A stretch of 64,000 nt of DNA, taken from the NCBI RefSeq assembly GCF_900104625.1, contig NZ_FNVZ01000004.1, positions 434,001 to 498,000 on the forward strand. The letters are read 5' to 3'. The DNA comes from Leptotrichia massiliensis (GTDB lineage Bacteria; Fusobacteriota; Fusobacteriia; Fusobacteriales; Leptotrichiaceae). The notes beneath the pieces were generated by a model. It did no database searches, was not told where the DNA came from, and saw nothing but the letters and a program-made list of their open reading frames with translations. Each line of letters starts with the position of its first letter. Positions within the stretch are counted from its first letter, which is position 1. This document shows positions 34,895 to 56,283 of this stretch, in pieces. The translations under genes were made by a program, and so were the position numbers.

Positions 34895-36787
34895 TCAATT
34901 CTTCAAAATCGCAATTAAAAGCGAAATATCATTATAAGTAACTCCACTAATTCTGCTAGCCTGCCCAATCGTTTCAGGCTGTCCATACATAAGCCCAGAA
35001 ATAGCGATATTGCTAAGCCCTTTTACGCTTTCATAGTCAAATCCTTTTGGAATTACCATTTTTTCAAGTTTCTTAAACTTCTCAATCTGTGCCTTTTCTC
35101 TTTCAATAAATACATTATATTTCGCATTTATTTCCACTTGCTCCTTCGCTAAATCCGACAATTTCACAGTTTCCACAAATTCACTTAAATTATCATAGTT
35201 AATTTCTTTTCTCGCAAGAAATTCAAAAGCTGAAACAGGGCTGTTCATGCTATTTTTAATAGTTTTTTCAATTTCCGCACTTTCAGATTGATTTTGTTTT
35301 TCTACAATTTTAAGTAATTTTTCATTATTTTCCTTAGTCGGATAAACCGTAATTCCTTTCAATCTTTCAACTTCATTTTCAATTTCCTGACACGTATTTT
35401 CAAGTTCGGCTAATTTTTCAGCATTTAATAACCCAATTTCCTTCGATTTTTCCAAAAGTCTTATAAAAATGTTGTCTTGACGCAAAGTCAGTCTGTATTC
35501 AGCTCTTGAAGGCAGTACACGATAAGGCTCTGGCGTTTTTTTATTTATTATATCGTCTATCAAAACCCCAATATATCCTTCACTTCTGTCAATCACAATT
35601 TCCTTTTTCCCTAAAATTTTTCTCGCAGCATTCACTCCCGCCATAAATCCTTGACAGGCTGCTTCTTCATATCCACTCGTTCCATTAATCGTTCCCGCTG
35701 TGTAAAGTCCATCTATAACTTTTGTTTCAAGAGTCAATTTTAACTGATAAGCAGGTACAAAGTTATATTCCACAGCATAACCGTAACGTACAATTTTAGC
35801 ATTTTCTAGCCCACTAATCGTTTTTAACATTGCTTCCTGTGCAAATGGAGGCATTGCTGTAGTAAATCCGTTTATGTAGATTTCATCTGATTCTACAGAT
35901 TCCTGCTCCAGAAATATCTGATGATTTGTCTTTTCTGGAAAATTCATAATCTTTCTGTCAAGAGAAGGGCAATGCCGTGGACCTTTTGTACTTACAATTC
36001 CTGTAACAATTGGCGAATATTTTAACATTTCCTGTCCCACTCGTATTGTTTCAGGTGTTGTGAATGTAAGCCAAGTTGGTAAAGTTGAATTATATTCTTT
36101 TTTTGTTTCGTAAGAAAAATATCGTGGCTTATCTTCTCCCTTTAATTCTTCCATTTTAGAAAAATCAATTGAAGATTTAGCAATTCTCGGAGGAGTCGCA
36201 GTCTGGTATCTATCCAGCTCAAAGCCATATTCCACTAGTTTATCAGGCAAATCTACACTTGCAGGCTCTCCTTGCCGTCCTGACGAATATTTTACATCCC
36301 CCATAACATATTCTCCACCTAAGAACGTTCCTGTACATAAAACAACAGCCTTTGCCCCATATTTTATTCCAAGATTGTCTTCAACTCCCATAACTTTCTT
36401 ATTTTCCACAATCAAATCTACAACAATTCCCTGCACCAAATCCAGATTTTCCTGCTTTTCGATAATTTCCCTCATTTTAACCCTGTACCAGTATTTATCA
36501 GCTTGAGCCCGTGTAATCCGAGAGGCTAGTCCCTTTGTATGATTCAAGTTCTTTAACTGCAAATTGTAATTGTCAATATGCCTTGCCATTTCTCCGCCAA
36601 GCATTCCAAGTTCCGACACCAGATGGCTTTTTCCAGGACCTCCAACCGACGGATTGCACGACATCATTGCAATATTGTCAAGATATATCGTAAACAACGC
36701 TGTTTTTAGTCCATGTCTTGCCACCGCAAGAGCAGATTCCACCCCAGCATGTCCCGCTCCAACAACAATTATGTCATAATTTTTCAT
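34895..36787 (-). CDS. mnmG: tRNA uridine 5-carboxymethylaminomethyl modification enzyme MnmG (GidA)
   Basis: FAD protein that with MnmE modifies U34 of certain tRNAs. At 630 residues it is full length. The dinucleotide-binding GAGHAGVESA is at residues 8-17; CNPSVGGPGKSHLVSELGML, GTFLGGEY and GTSGYEEAACQGFMAG are diagnostic. AAAGGAAAA is upstream of the ATG. The partner gene mnmE lies across the origin at 48.8 kb. Often gidA sits near oriC, as here. Upstream is a 700-bp gap holding repeat copy A. Confidence 0.97.
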   Translation of the reverse strand: MKNYDIIVVGAGHAGVESALAVARHGLKTALFTIYLDNIAMMSCNPSVGGPGKSHLVSELGMLGGEMARHIDNYNLQLKNLNHTKGLASRITRAQADKYWYRVKMREIIEKQENLDLVQGIVVDLIVENKKVMGVEDNLGIKYGAKAVVLCTGTFLGGEYVMGDVKYSSGRQGEPASVDLPDKLVEYGFELDRYQTATPPRIAKSSIDFSKMEELKGEDKPRYFSYETKKEYNSTLPTWLTFTTPETIRVGQEMLKYSPIVTGIVSTKGPRHCPSLDRKIMNFPEKTNHQIFLEQESVESDEIYINGFTTAMPPFAQEAMLKTISGLENAKIVRYGYAVEYNFVPAYQLKLTLETKVIDGLYTAGTINGTSGYEEAACQGFMAGVNAARKILGKKEIVIDRSEGYIGVLIDDIINKKTPEPYRVLPSRAEYRLTLRQDNIFIRLLEKSKEIGLLNAEKLAELENTCQEIENEVERLKGITVYPTKENNEKLLKIVEKQNQSESAEIEKTIKNSMNSPVSAFEFLARKEINYDNLSEFVETVKLSDLAKEQVEINAKYNVFIEREKAQIEKFKKLEKMVIPKGFDYESVKGLSNIAISGLMYGQPETIGQASRISGVTYNDISLLIAILKN

Positions 36788-36905
36788 TTTTTAAATTTTC
36801 CTTTCAACTTATTATTTTTTTTTTACTATTCTTATTTGATAACCTTATCAAAAAATTTAATTTTAACTCTAAATATTTATCTTAATAATTGTATTTTTTT
36901 AACGT

Positions 36906-37368
36906 AAAGAGGATCAGTCGCCATCCCCTTTTATTTCGCAATATTAGTTATTTCAATTTCTTCAAATTATAACATCTGAAGATTTTGGCGAAAGTGCTAC
37001 GCACTAATCCCCGCTTGTCTAAGTATTTTTTTGAAATAAAATTGAAACTCGCTTTTTAAAAAAAGTTATTGTCAACTCTTTAAACTAATCAAAATTTAAA
37101 AAGTCTGAAAAAACTCAAACAGTCAATTTCATTCCAAAAAAATCACGACAATTTTAATTTAATTAATAATAAATTATTTAACAAAAACAAATATTAAGCA
37201 AAATTTCGTTAAAGAAAAAATAACTGTTTGAGATTTTGAAGTAAATTTTAAACTATATTCAATTATTTGTTTTGAAATAACCTTAATTCAAAATCGAGTT
37301 TTATTTTTTCTTTATAAGAAAGTTTTGCGTAAGCGGGGTTGTAAGGGCATGGCGTCTGATGCCCTTAC
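36906..37368 (-). repeat. Long structured intergenic element, copy A
   Basis: On the minus strand the element starts with a hairpin (37368-37341: stem 10 bp, loop CAGACGCC) and ends with another (36931-36906: 9-bp stem with one G-U pair, loop GGCGACTG). Between them are blocks shared with copy B at 52301: CCCGCTT, ACGCAAAACTTTCTTATAAA, TAACGAAATTTTG, AAAATTGTCGTGATTTTTT, CTGTTTGAG, GCGAGTTT and a CTTAGA block. In this copy CCCCGCTT near one end matches AAGCGGGG near the other as inverted repeats. No ORF is apparent. It fills most of the gap between mnmG and the Kdo-kinase-like gene; outside it (36788-36905, 37369-37496) I see only AT-rich sequence. Confidence 0.85.
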
Positions 37369-37496
37369 GTTACAAAAAAATAAATAAAAAAAGAATAAAA
37401 AAACTATTATTAGTCATTATTAAATTAATAAAAATTAACTCATAAAAAATTTTCAAAAGAGATATTTTAGATAAATTTTAAAATTATTAAACAAAT

Positions 37497-38411
37497 TTAC
37501 TTCTTCTTTTTAAAAACATTCCTTACTGGACGAGTAATATCCTTAAAATACACATAACTTTTGTGTTTTCTAATATAATACCTCAAATATCTAAAAACCA
37601 ATTCTTCCCTCTGTTTGCAGTACTTCGCATATTCATTAGCAAAAATTCTCGCTAGTTTTTCATCTTCCATCATTCTTGAAACATTTTTCATTCTTTTATC
37701 CAGATTCAATTTCACTCCGAATTTCATTCTATTTAAATCAACCAGATAAAATTCATAATTCCCGCTTTTGTCCTTAATCAACACATTACCCGGCGAATAA
37801 TCTTCAAATTCTACACCACTTTCGTGCAAGTCAAAAGAAAATTTTGCAAACTGTCTTATGATTTTTTCACGATTTTTTTCTACTTTTGCAAGCATTCTTT
37901 CCGTTTCTTCACTTATCTTGTAATTTTCCCCCTGTTCAGCCTTGTCCCGCTCGATATCCTCAGGCCAGAAAACTTCCCGGCAGGTAAAATCATATTTTAA
38001 TTCTTCGCTTATATAATAACTGTTTTTTTTATTATTTTCGTTTACAAAATCATCAAAATATGCAATTGGTTCTGGAGTTTTTATTTTACATTCCAGCAAT
38101 TTTTTTGCATATTCATAAGAACGTTTTGCTTTTGAGCCTTTAAATTTATAGAAAAAGTTTGTAATGAAATCTTTTTGTTTAAATTTTTTTATATTTACCA
38201 TTTTTTTTCTTTCAGTATTTTCAATGTTATTATTTTTTTTCTTTTTTTCATTCCCTTTTTTCAAATTATTTTCAATATATATCTCAAACTTTTTTATTTC
38301 ATTTCTTCCCGGTTCTACAACATATTCTCCAGTTTTATCAAAATTTTTCAGTACATTTATCAATATTTTTTCATCATATTTCTTATTAACTTCATAATTT
38401 TTTTCTTTCAT
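37497..38411 (-). CDS. Kdo/WaaP-type lipopolysaccharide kinase-like protein
   Basis: Kinase-fold protein probably phosphorylating Kdo or core heptose. Residues about 95-240 carry the fold: KGSKAKRSYEYAKKLLE (nucleotide-binding side), then the catalytic loop as HESGVEFEDYSPGNVLI (the usual H-x-D is shifted to an E-D-Y-S-P-G-N form) and FYLVDLNRMKFG (metal-binding D). The first 75 residues are very basic with a run of K and N. GAGGATTTTAA precedes the ATG. It is downstream of the TPR gene (27 bp) on the same strand. A second kinase-like gene is at 30437. Confidence 0.75.
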   Translation of the reverse strand: MKEKNYEVNKKYDEKILINVLKNFDKTGEYVVEPGRNEIKKFEIYIENNLKKGNEKKKKNNNIENTERKKMVNIKKFKQKDFITNFFYKFKGSKAKRSYEYAKKLLECKIKTPEPIAYFDDFVNENNKKNSYYISEELKYDFTCREVFWPEDIERDKAEQGENYKISEETERMLAKVEKNREKIIRQFAKFSFDLHESGVEFEDYSPGNVLIKDKSGNYEFYLVDLNRMKFGVKLNLDKRMKNVSRMMEDEKLARIFANEYAKYCKQREELVFRYLRYYIRKHKSYVYFKDITRPVRNVFKKKK

Positions 38412-50243: not shown

Positions 50244-52226
50244 ATGGATAATAATTATGGAGCAGAGGCGATTACTGTTCTGGAAGGGCTGGAAGCAGTT
50301 AGAAAACGTCCAGGAATGTATATTGGATCAACTTCAGCACGTGGGCTTCACCATCTAGTATGGGAAATTGTAGATAACAGTGTGGATGAGGCACTTGCTG
50401 GAATTTGTGATAAAATTACTGTAAAGATACTTGAAGGAAATATTATCGAAGTATCTGATAATGGACGTGGAATCCCTGTAGGAATGCACAAAACTGGAAA
50501 ATCAACTTTAGAAGTTGTACTTACTGTACTTCACGCCGGAGGGAAATTTGACAATGATAATTATAAAGTGTCAGGTGGACTTCACGGAGTTGGGGTATCT
50601 GTCGTAAATGCTTTGTCAGAATGGCTTGAGGCAACTGTAACACGTGATGGAAAGATTTTTAGACAGACATATCAGCGTGGTGTTCCAACTTCGCCTGTGG
50701 AGGAAATTGGCGTGGCAGACGATGGTGCACATGGGACTGTAGTAAGATTTAAAGCTGATGATGAAATATTTGAAACAACAGTTTACGATTATTCTGTATT
50801 GGAATCACGTCTAAAAGAATTGGCATATTTGAATAAAGGCTTAAAAATTGAACTGGCTGATGAAAGAAATGCTGAAAATGTAAAAGCTGAAGAATTTTTA
50901 TTTGAGGGTGGAATAAAGGATTTTTTAAATGAAATTATAGATGAGGAAAAAATAATTGATGATGTAATTTATATGGCTGATACGATGCAAATTGAGGAAG
51001 CGAAGGAAGTGGAAGCTGAGGATGAAAACGGAAACCCAGTGATAAAACAGCGAAGTGCAAAATTTGTGGAAGTGGAAATTGCGATGAACTACACGACTTC
51101 ACAAAGAGAAACTGTTTATTCGTTTGTAAATAATATAAATACTCATGAAGGTGGAACTCATGTCAGCGGATTTAGAACTGCACTTACAAGAACAATTAAT
51201 GATATTGCAAAACAGATGAACTTAATCAAGGATAAAAATGGGACATTTCAGGGAACAGATGTAAGAGAAGGGCTTGTCTGTGTAATAAGTGTAAAGATAC
51301 CTGAGCCTCAATTTGAAGGGCAGACAAAAACAAAACTTGGAAACAGTGAAGTTACAGGAATTGTCTCAAATATTGTTGGAAGCAACCTGAAATTTTATTT
51401 GGAAGATCATCCCAAAGATGCTGAAAGAGTTATTGAGAAAATGGCAATGTCAAAAAGGGCAAGAGAAGCTGCGAAAAAAGCAAGAGAACTTGTACTTAGA
51501 AAAAATACGTTGGAAGTAGGATCATTGCCTGGAAAGTTGGCAGACTGCTCTTCAAAAGATCCAGCTGAATCAGAAATTTTCATAGTCGAAGGAAACTCAG
51601 CAGGAGGTTCTGCAAAACAAGGAAGAGATAGAAGATTTCAGGCAATATTGCCTCTTCGTGGAAAAATCTTGAATGTAGAAAAATCAGGAGTGCACAAGGC
51701 TCTTGAAAATGCAGAAATTAGAGCAATGATTACAGCCTTTGGAGCTGGATTTGGCGAAGAAATGGACTTAAAAAAACTAAGATACCATAAAATCGTAATT
51801 ATGACAGATGCTGATGTTGACGGAGCTCACATCAGAACATTAATGCTAACTTTCTTCTACAGACATCTAAGAGAATTAATAAATGAAGGCTACATCTATA
51901 TCGCACAGCCGCCTTTATATAAAATTCAGGCTGGAAAAGCAATCAGATACGCCTATTCAGACGATCAGATGAAACAAGTGACAAGAGTACTGGAAGGAGA
52001 AGGACGAAAATATACAATCCAGCGTTACAAAGGGCTTGGAGAAATGAACCCAGAACAGCTTTGGGAAACAACGCTTGACCCAGAAGTAAGAACATTGTTA
52101 AAAGTATCAATGGAAGACGCTTCCTATGCCGATAAGATGTTTAATATTCTGATGGGGGATAAGGTTGAGCCGAGAAGGAAGTTTATTGAGGATAATGCAA
52201 ACTACGTAAGAAATCTGGATATATAA
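50244..52226 (+). CDS. gyrB: DNA gyrase subunit B
   Basis: ATPase subunit of gyrase, introducing negative supercoils. The 660-residue product has VRKRPGMYIGSTSARGLHHL (20 residues of the GHKL start), the DNGRGIPV nucleotide loop, GGLHGVGVSVVNALSE, and the TOPRIM part with EGNSAGGSAKQGRDR and MTDADVDGAHIRTL. Length and the C-terminal YIYIAQPPLYK segment fit GyrB rather than ParE. GGAGGAAAT is before the ATG. It is separated from gyrA by 600 bp that holds repeat copy B. Confidence 0.97.
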   Translation: MDNNYGAEAITVLEGLEAVRKRPGMYIGSTSARGLHHLVWEIVDNSVDEALAGICDKITVKILEGNIIEVSDNGRGIPVGMHKTGKSTLEVVLTVLHAGGKFDNDNYKVSGGLHGVGVSVVNALSEWLEATVTRDGKIFRQTYQRGVPTSPVEEIGVADDGAHGTVVRFKADDEIFETTVYDYSVLESRLKELAYLNKGLKIELADERNAENVKAEEFLFEGGIKDFLNEIIDEEKIIDDVIYMADTMQIEEAKEVEAEDENGNPVIKQRSAKFVEVEIAMNYTTSQRETVYSFVNNINTHEGGTHVSGFRTALTRTINDIAKQMNLIKDKNGTFQGTDVREGLVCVISVKIPEPQFEGQTKTKLGNSEVTGIVSNIVGSNLKFYLEDHPKDAERVIEKMAMSKRAREAAKKARELVLRKNTLEVGSLPGKLADCSSKDPAESEIFIVEGNSAGGSAKQGRDRRFQAILPLRGKILNVEKSGVHKALENAEIRAMITAFGAGFGEEMDLKKLRYHKIVIMTDADVDGAHIRTLMLTFFYRHLRELINEGYIYIAQPPLYKIQAGKAIRYAYSDDQMKQVTRVLEGEGRKYTIQRYKGLGEMNPEQLWETTLDPEVRTLLKVSMEDASYADKMFNILMGDKVEPRRKFIEDNANYVRNLDI

Positions 52227-52300
52227 TTTATTTTTTATTTTAAGATATTTTGGTTAATGATTATTTTTTCTTATTTTATTTATATTAATTTTTTTAACAC

Positions 52301-52675
52301 AGAGGTATCAGACGCCATACCTCTGCACACCCGCTTGACGCAAAACTTTCTTATAAAAGAAAAATAGAAGTTACTTAACTCATAAATAGATTCCAAAAGC
52401 TCACTTTCACAATAAAAAGTTAAAATGATTCAAATAAATGGTATTTAATGTAAAAATTATGGTGAAAGAAACACATTCGTGTTTAGCTATTTTTCTTCTA
52501 ACGAAATTTTGTTTGATTTTGATTTAGTTAAATCAACTGTTGTAATTAGATTAAAATTGTCGTGATTTTTTGGAAATAAAAATTTCTGTTTGAGCAAAGC
52601 GAGTTTAATTTTTATTTTCAAAAAATGCTTAGATGAGCCAGGGATGCAAGGGAAATGGCGATTGATTTCCCTTGC
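52301..52675 (+). repeat. Long structured intergenic element, copy B
   Basis: Plus-strand copy of the element at 36906. It opens with the hairpin CAGAGGTAT/ATACCTCTG around CAGACGCC (52301-52326) and closes with an 11-bp stem (52646-52656 with 52665-52675) around GGCGATTG. Shared blocks in the same order: CCCGCTTGACGCAAAACTTT, CTTATAAA, TAACGAAATTTTG, AAAATTGTCGTGATTTTTTG, CTGTTTGAG, GCGAGTTT and AAAAAATGCTTAGA. It differs from copy A in a central segment. No ORF. It lies between gyrB and gyrA; the rest of that gap shows no feature except a ribosome site AGAGGTG before gyrA. Confidence 0.85.
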
Positions 52676-52828
52676 TTAAAAAAAGAAGAAGATATAGAAA
52701 TTATAGGAATAACATTTGTTAGCAAAAATTTATTTTATAAAAGATGTTTAATAGATAAATATACAAGTTAGGTTGTGGAATTTTGAGAAGGTGGATTATA
52801 AAGTAAAAGAAAAGAAAAGAGGTGCAGG

Positions 52829-55393
52829 ATGTCAGACGATTTTAGAGATGACGATGAAAGAGAAGAAGAGATAACGGAAATGGATGAGAACGATGATAGG
52901 GAAATCATTGTGGAAGGATTGCCTAAGGCTACGGATTTATCAAATGAATCTAATGTTTATATTGAGGATGAGATAAAGGCGGCTTATTTGGATTATTCGA
53001 TGAGTGTAATTGTTAGCCGTGCGTTGCCTGATGTACGTGATGGATTAAAGCCTGTGCATAGAAGAATTTTGTTTTCCATGAGTGAAATGGGAATGAGCCA
53101 TAAAACTCCATTTAAAAAATCGGCAAGAATTGTCGGGGATGTATTGGGGAAATACCATCCACACGGGGATTCATCAGTTTATGGTGCAATGGTTAGAATG
53201 GCACAGGACTTTAATATGAGATATGAACTTATCGACGGACATGGAAACTTTGGTTCGATTGATGGGGATGAAGCGGCGGCAATGCGGTATACAGAAGCTA
53301 GAATGGCTAAAATTACTGAAGAATTACTTGCGGATATTGGAAAAGATACGATTGATTACAGAAAGAACTTTGATGAAAGTTTGGATGAGCCGGTTGTATT
53401 GCCTGCTAAACTTCCAAATTTATTGCTAAATGGAGCAAACGGTATTGCCGTTGGAATGGCTACAAATATTCCGCCACATAATCTAGGGGAAGTAGTTGAT
53501 GGAATTATTGCGTTGATTGATAATCCTGAAATTTCGATTGATGAACTGATTACGTATATAAAAGGTCCAGATTTTCCAACTGGAGGTATAATTAACGGAA
53601 AACAAGGAATTTATGATGCATATAGAACTGGACGTGGAAAGCTAAGAGTTGCAGGACGTGTGGAAGTTGAAACTTCAAAAACTGGGAAAGAGTCGATTAT
53701 TGTTACAGAATTACCATATCAGGTAAATAAAGCCAGACTTATTGAAAAAATTGCTGATTTGGTAAGACAGAAGAAAATTACTGGAATATCTGACTTGCGG
53801 GATGAAACTGACAGGGATGGTATCAGAATTGTAATTGAGCTGAAAAAAGGTGAAGAAAGTGAATTGATTCTGAACAGCCTTTATAAATTTACTGATTTAC
53901 AAAATACATTTGGTGTAATTATGCTTGCACTTGTGGATAATGCACCAAGAGTGTTGAATTTAAAGCAGGTTCTTCAGAAATATCTGGAACATAGGTTTGA
54001 AGTAATTACAAGAAGAACTGAATTTGAGCTGAAAAAGGCTAAAAATAGGGCTCATATTTTGGAAGGATTCAAAATTGCACTTGATAATATTGAGGAAGTA
54101 ATTAGAATTATACGTGCTTCAAAGGATGCAAATGTTGCACGAACTGAATTAATTGCAAAATTTGGATTCTCAGAAATTCAAGCAAAAGCTATTCTGGATA
54201 TGAGATTACAAAGGCTTACTGGACTTGAAAGAGATAAAATTAATCAGGAATATAACGAACTTATGCTATTAATTGAAGAATTAACTGGAATTTTATCTGA
54301 CGATTCAAAAATATATGGTATAATTAAAGAGGAGGTACTTAAGTTAAAAGAAGATTTTGGTGATGAACGTAGAACTGAAATCAGAAATGCAAGAGCCGAA
54401 ATTAGTATAGAAGACTTAATTAAGGACGAAGAAGTTGTTGTAACACTTACAGAAAAAGGTTACGTAAAACGTGTAACAATCGACACTTACCGTTCTCAAA
54501 AACGTGGTGGAATCGGTGTAAATGCTACAAATACAATAGAAGACGATGTAGTAAAAGATATGTACATAGCAAAAACTCTTGATACATTACTTATTTTCAC
54601 AACAAAAGGAAAAGTATTCAGCATAAAAGTGTACGAAATCCCTGAAACTGGAAAACAAGCACGTGGAAAACTGATTGGAAACATTATAAATCTAGATACT
54701 GATGAAAAAGTTAGCACAATAATAAGAGTTCGGGAATTTGAAAAAAATAAAAACTTATTCTTTGTAACACGAAACGGAGTTGTTAAAAAATCTGAACTGA
54801 CATTGTTTGACAACATTAAAAAAGCTGGAAAACGTGCAATTAAGTTAAATGATGATGATGAAGTTATGTATATTGGGCTTACAAGCGGAACTGGTGAGGA
54901 CGAAGTATTTGCCGCTACAAGAAACGGTATTGCGATTAGATTCTCTGAAAAAGATGTAAGAAGCATGGGAACTGGAGCAGCAGGAGTAAAAGGTATAACT
55001 CTTAGGGATAAGGACAAAATTGTAGGAGCCGCAATTATTAATTCAGAAATGAATAATGATGAAATGAGAATTCTTACAATTACTGAGGAAGGATATGGAA
55101 AACGTACTAAGTTATCAGAATATAGACTTACATCTAGAGGCGGAAAAGGAATTATCAATGCAAAACTTAATGATAAAACTGGGAAAATCGTAGATGTAAA
55201 AATTGTTACAGAAAATGATGAAATTATGCTTATTACGTCAGAAGGAACATTGATTAGAACGAGCGTTAATAACGTGTCGGTAATAGGGCGTTCGGCATCT
55301 GGTGTACGAATAATGAAAGTTAGAAATAATGAAAAAATTGCTTCAGTGGTAAAAATTACAGAAGAGCCTGAATTGATTGAAGATGAACAATAA
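52829..55393 (+). CDS. gyrA: DNA gyrase subunit A
   Basis: Cleavage-rejoining subunit. The 854-residue protein starts with an acidic extension of about 35 residues, then [40 protein letters not shown], the catalytic tyrosine Tyr154 in MRYTEARM, and a C-terminal beta-propeller region. The GyrA box is plausible in [10 protein letters not shown] near residue 555, distinguishing it from ParC. AGAGGTG precedes the ATG. The 600-bp gap to gyrB is unusual for this operon and contains repeat copy B. Confidence 0.96.
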
Positions 55394-56235: not shown

Positions 56236-56283
56236 TTACTCAAACAGTTTTTATAAATACAAATATAATTTCTGTTTGAGTAA
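56236..56283. repeat. Inverted repeat, TCAAA/TTTGA family
   Basis: TTACTCAAACAG (56236-56247) pairs with CTGTTTGAGTAA (56272-56283), a perfect 12-bp stem with a 24-nt loop, 40 bp after the Usp-like gene. It shares the sequence AATTTCTGTTTGAG with repeat copy B. It may end the gyrA-usp transcript, although the T-run is weak. The rest of the 56197-57043 gap is AT-rich with no ORF I would call a gene. Confidence 0.6.

Follow-up and report, generated by a model that had tools for sequence, protein, structure and literature searches.

Two intergenic stretches of Leptotrichia massiliensis DNA, here called copies A and B, carry terminal hairpins with the same loops on different stems. Both lie in a window of 64,000 nucleotides, the whole stretch of DNA that was analysed. 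A previous interpretation of this DNA (the sequence-only reading) took such an arrangement to mark either a structured non-coding RNA or a mobile, MITE-like element of the lineage. Which of the two is it? We find that copies A and B are the cores of old, gene-less mobile DNA, the tips of which have been degraded or lost. The family to which they belong is probably a mosaic MITE family, limited to Leptotrichia, that a DDE-type transposase mobilised in trans; copies would since have recombined with one another, so that their halves became shuffled and flipped.

Architecture of the elements in the window

An element consists of two inverted half-units of roughly 200-300 bp, each with an AT-rich outer arm and its tip, a hairpin of 10-11 bp (HP1) and a long hairpin (HP2). 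The outermost tip, TACTAAAYCCCRTTTAAA, is present at both ends of tip-bounded elements. Read inward, the HP1 loop is CARACGCC at the left-type end and CARTCGCC at the right-type end, i.e. position 4 is A in the former and T in the latter. The inner pair of longer hairpins is in inverted orientation with the apical-loop motif CTGTTTGAG...GCGAGTTT, and some copies contain inserted optional modules.

Copy A (36824-37470, minus strand, left-type end at the high coordinate) is flanked by mnmG (34895-36787, minus) and a Kdo/WaaP-like kinase gene (37497-38411, minus); its low-coordinate tip is TACTATTCTTATTTGATAACC at 36824, and its high-coordinate tip is degraded. The core on the minus strand, to which the element had been confined before (36906-37368), begins with the left-type hairpin HP1-L (37341-37368; stem GTAAGGGCAT/ATGCCCTTAC, loop CAGACGCC at 37351-37358), followed by HP2-L (37198-37328; a long AT-rich stem with the apical loop AACTCGA...CTCAAACAG) and HP2-R (37017-37149; a long stem closed by GTC/GAC, in which the motif halves CTGTTTGAG and GCGAGTTT are 61 nt apart). 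An optional module of ~75 bp with a TTTCGC...GCGAAA hairpin (36932-37005), which copy B and many other copies do not have, precedes the right-type hairpin HP1-R (36906-36931; stem AAAGGGGAT/ATCCTCTTT, loop GGCGACTG at 36915-36922).

Copy B lies on the plus strand between gyrB (50244-52226) and gyrA (52829-55393). It is homologous to other copies over positions 52236-52742, its tips are unrecognisable, and it includes HP1-L (52300-52325; stem CAGAGGTAT/ATACCTCTG, loop CAGACGCC at 52309-52316), HP2-R (52559-52634; GTCGTGATTTTTTGG...CTGTTTGAGCAAAGCGAGTTT...TGCTTAGATG) and HP1-R (52646-52675; stem GCAAGGGAAAT/ATTTCCCTTGC, loop GGCGATTG at 52657-52664).

All four terminal loops are where the sequence-only reading had placed them, the internal blocks are conserved in order (20 and 19 nt, exact in both copies), and neither core contains an ORF, leaving no coding capacity. 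Two of its descriptions need amendment. The stems, said to differ and yet be fully paired, largely keep their pairing, but the right stem of copy A has one G-T pair and the left stem of copy B ends in an A-C mismatch. Similarly, the hairpins do delimit the cores, but not the elements: conservation extends ~60-190 nt beyond them, and the long outer arms are common to both ends. The window contains CAGACGCC two times, against an expectation of 0.19, and the conserved 20-mer block has three matches at ≤ 3 mismatches (0.04 expected). Elsewhere in the window, positions 56239-56282 hold a short inverted pair, CTCAAACAG/CTGTTTGAG, that resembles the apical motif; the remainder of the element is absent there.

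Copy number, range and gene context

BLAST and loop-pattern searches revealed ~47 distinct interspersed loci in the 2.54 Mb source genome, and the further copies expected in related genomes were present in all 13 Leptotrichia genomes searched. None of 47 genomes of relatives outside the genus gave a match. Hairpin-pattern matches in another genus of the same family (n = 2) were both within ORFs, and one of them (L410), read base by base, has no hairpin. Among 84,980 species represented by one genome each, a set from which records of the source genome or near-identical genomes may be missing, the exact 20-nt block was found only in Leptotrichia hongkongensis and Leptotrichia sp. oral taxon 879. 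Phage and plasmid records yielded no copies. Pattern matches in a viral collection have no hairpins and appear to be due to chance, and a query of viral contigs with mnmG returned no match and was of little use.

The hairpins are intergenic, in 42 tandem, seven convergent and three divergent gene contexts, which closely resembles the window background of 20, three and two respectively. The sole hairpin match inside an ORF is due to chance, element sequence being absent from it, and no orientation rule was seen.

Recent copies, empty sites and target duplication

Within two recent subfamilies, copies at non-orthologous sites share 93-96% identity, and three of these loci are empty in sister species. 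In two of these three, the insertion starts just past the intrinsic terminator of the upstream gene; placement of recent insertions after terminator T-runs suggests a target preference. The gyrB-gyrA gap, the site of copy B, is empty in five species, is occupied in opposite orientations in others, and contains a different core in two.

Identical trinucleotides flank 23 of the 45 tip-bounded elements (TTA 12, TAA 10, TCA 1), as compared with 0-3 at shifted positions and a mean of 13.4 upon permutation. The maximum in 2000 permutations was also 23; the observed count does no better than about the best of these because TTA and TAA make up nearly all of the flanks. Among the few tip-bounded copies of the long core-1 elements there is one exact flank match, and most copies are too degraded. 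The flanking sequences support, without proving, a putative 3-bp TNA target duplication. In the IS5 family, the IS1031 group is known to make TNA duplications, which we take as a lead only.

Thus, the mobile half of the sequence-only interpretation was well founded: the copies are dispersed within Leptotrichia only, end in tips that are inverted repeats, have matching TNA flanks in excess and empty sites in sister species, and, as described below, undergo replacement of halves and stems as well as inversion of the core.

Two further observations concern insertion sites. In comparisons of L195 and L197 with L326-L329 and L335-L337, recent insertions abut the T-run of the upstream intrinsic terminator. 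At L329 (G000:C5:517700-518400), only a short palindrome of apparent element ends is present where genomes G006 and G008 have the full element; this palindrome may be a deletion remnant.

Orthologous sites exchange halves and stem alleles

Most copies occupy sites that are shared between Leptotrichia species, and the contents of these sites vary, with other stem alleles, other halves, the opposite orientation or a type-2 half. At the site of copy A, four genomes (G001, G008, G009 and G010) have one half in common with the source genome and a type-2 half in place of the other, while in G006 the two ends are reversed. Swapped or flipped halves predominate in the unfiltered listing of orthologues. 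The family can serve as a set of intergenic markers in Leptotrichia, the empty, filled, flipped and recombined states of which are readable across species.

Where the inner half is conserved, the stems are mostly unchanged, and double changes are swaps of three or more pairs. In a second comparison, of 233 orthologous pairs, in which the reference hairpin was required to be intact and its orthologue was allowed to be broken, 174 hairpins were unchanged, 37 had one-sided changes, 14 were whole swaps and eight had one or two compensated pairs. Divergence between orthologues, calculated from pairs that are not independent of each other, was 2.2-3.2% in the stems, 2.9% in the adjacent core, 6.0% in the loops and 6.3% in the outer flank. 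An earlier global alignment had given 5.6% for stems, 7.2% for core, 7.5% for loops and 5.2% for outer flank; the two core estimates (7.2% versus 2.9%) differ because the filtering differs. Judged from these alignments, the hairpins appear to be under no clear constraint beyond that of the neighbouring core. Stem pairing is better than free decay alone predicts, in a comparison that had selected intact hairpins.

Stem covariation probably arises mainly from swapped pieces

The existence of ~47 copies in the genome made covariation testable. Across 36 distinct hairpins, 93.1% of the cells are paired, compared with 73.8% after shuffling; eight of the 10 stem pairs show double-sided changes, and the covariation score is 0.549 as opposed to 0.189 for shuffled stems, with none of 500 shuffles reaching the observed score. 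The covariation first proposed for copies A and B is therefore real as a statistic, but it mainly reflects the swapping of whole alleles rather than pair-by-pair compensation. The stems fall into ~10 discrete, perfectly palindromic alleles with few intermediates. Most of the covariation is probably due to copies having exchanged or inverted whole pieces, and not to RNA structure. More generally, this is a warning case, in that dispersed repeats can beat every shuffle for covariation through palindromic allele swaps, without selection on an RNA.

A structured RNA of several hundred nucleotides, transcribed from many loci and with loops that are recognised by a protein or kiss each other, would fit the strong pairing and double changes, the three hairpins whose loops stay fixed while their stems vary, and the folding of the copy A minus strand, which is far better than that of shuffles (z = -9.4). 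However, good folding is likewise seen for the opposite strand (z = -7.1). G-U mismatches are no more frequent than A-C mismatches (22 each), and so neither strand resembles an RNA strand. Moreover, orientation relative to the neighbouring genes flips between species, with cores inverted at orthologous sites, the stems change by whole-allele swaps, loop divergence matches that of the flanks, and Rfam contains no match at the gathering threshold and no credible family at relaxed thresholds. The proposed kissing contact fares no better. The loops of one copy are indeed nearly complementary, but this is a direct consequence of the ends being inverted repeats, and a loop-loop pairing would have a near-constant A-A mismatch at position 4; the evidence lends no support to a kissing contact as a feature in its own right. 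Collectively, the structured non-coding RNA reading lacks support, and we consider it unlikely.

It is likewise improbable that the hairpins are sites of a recombinase that reads the 8-nt loop, with position 4 distinguishing left from right, and tolerates any stem; such an enzyme would exchange or invert half-units as cassettes, the arms being kept perfect by hairpin-templated copying.

We favour instead the mosaic MITE family outlined above. A DDE-type transposase, probably now lost or diverged, would have mobilised its copies in trans and generated a 3-bp TNA duplication. Once inserted, copies would recombine, both with one another and internally from arm to arm, resulting in swapped and flipped half-units, and this shuffling would yield most of the apparent covariation. 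Each stem allele would have arisen while its element lineage was still spreading, and any function for the host would be a side effect.

Search for a mobilising enzyme

DDE_Tnp_1 transposases (PF01609) are absent from the source genome. Two delimited groups in sister species were rejected as helpers, as their ends are TTAGGGCGTGTCTGAAAA and AGACCTGTTCGACAAC, not TACTAAA. Long convergent tip pairs were considered as autonomous copies and discarded, since host genes lie between the tips in the cases inspected. Among the PF01609 and PF01797 elements of the genus that were examined, none was an autonomous element with matching tips. Such an element is a supporting rather than a required criterion for a MITE, because the helper may be lost.

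The subterminal inverted hairpins, mosaic composition and intergenic placement are reminiscent of BIMEs and REPINs, and could point to REP/BIME- or REPIN-like palindromes that are spread by a hairpin-recognising Y1 (RAYT) single-strand transposase. This origin is very unlikely: Y1 transposases (PF01797) are absent from the source genome, G008 and G010 despite the abundance of copies, the motifs are missing from the Y1 elements of sister species, and the signs of TNA duplication together with conventional inverted tips fit a DDE enzyme better.

As a separate observation, genome G001 carries six IS5-like insertion sequences of ~950 bp that are 97-100% identical, have the ends TTAGGGCGTGTCTGAAAACTC (L373, L381, L387, L391, L395 and L398), and were probably active recently.

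Cores invert in place

Three pairs of loci exhibit inversion of the core between collinear flanks. In L206 and L185, the flanks are collinear on both sides and the core is 97.8% identical on the opposite strand; the inverted cores of L184/L068 and L169/L065 are 94.6% and 90.4% identical respectively. Overlapping alignments place the inversion breakpoints within arms of > 100 bp, which could be substrates for ordinary homologous recombination. Invertible switches, in which a site-specific recombinase flips the core between the hairpin ends to control neighbouring genes, would also produce these three clear inversions between species and the many opposite orientations at orthologous sites, but are highly improbable given breakpoints inside arms that are open to ordinary homology and window copies that both lack an ORF.

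Relation to known intergenic repeats

By analogy of behaviour, the family is of a known kind, comparable to BOX, RUP, Correia and BIME/REPIN elements. The pneumococcal BOX, RUP and SPRITE repeats are gene-less and intergenic and number from tens to > 100 copies; inverted tips and target duplications occur in both RUP and BOX, the latter being a modular repeat of 67-637 bp with stable hairpins, and IS630-Spn1 and ISSpn2 are candidate helpers for RUP and BOX (PMC3049150). Copies of these repeats were reported to insert into one another (PMC10969869). The Leptotrichia family behaves similarly in being intergenic, gene-less and multicopy, with inverted tips and modular hairpins. It differs in that it has as modules two inverted half-units that end in the same tip, its stems are interchangeable alleles, and no helper was found.

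Correia repeat enclosed elements of Neisseria are small inverted-repeat elements for which in-place inversion was described (Elbeyioglu et al., 2017, cited in the review PMC10969869). The Leptotrichia element inverts in place as well. Correia ends are ~26 bp with a TA target, whereas in Leptotrichia the arms are longer than 100 bp and the flanks show a TNA signal. In REP/BIME and REPIN sequences, alternating palindromic units form intergenic mosaics (PMC2817692, PMC3116915), and these elements, the REP units of which measure 20-40 bp, are associated with Y1 (RAYT) transposases (PMC3733652). The palindromic units in Leptotrichia also alternate and build intergenic mosaics; in contrast, they do so in a source genome without Y1, and as half-units roughly 200-300 bp long. 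A GC-IGR survey that covers Leptotrichia buccalis gives the name MRSC (mobile/repeat sequence candidate) to repeated, covarying motifs that may be mobile elements (PMC11109978). The element studied here is possibly already among the L. buccalis motifs of that survey; as far as the available part describes it, MRSC-65-2, with one long stem and UYCCGG repeats, is different.

The tip TACTAAAYCCCRTTTAAA also bounds smaller hairpin elements of ~115-440 bp in Leptotrichia, some of which have a second hairpin type, GTAGGATTTGCTCATTGCCGCAAATCCTAC or a close variant. A second family of ~300-440 bp with the same tips has the hairpin GTAGGATTGCTCATTGCCGCAAATCCTAC (L343, L344, L350, L369 and others, in the source genome e.g. 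at C4:553852-554168); in the long hairpin of this family, the loop AAACTCGCTATGCTCAAACAG is retained and the stem is unrelated. Four loci of the source genome (L345, L342, L346 and L352) are only ~115-120 bp long, with the same tips and little between them; in L342 and L346, a AAGGGGTCTTGACCCCTT palindrome lies between the tips instead.
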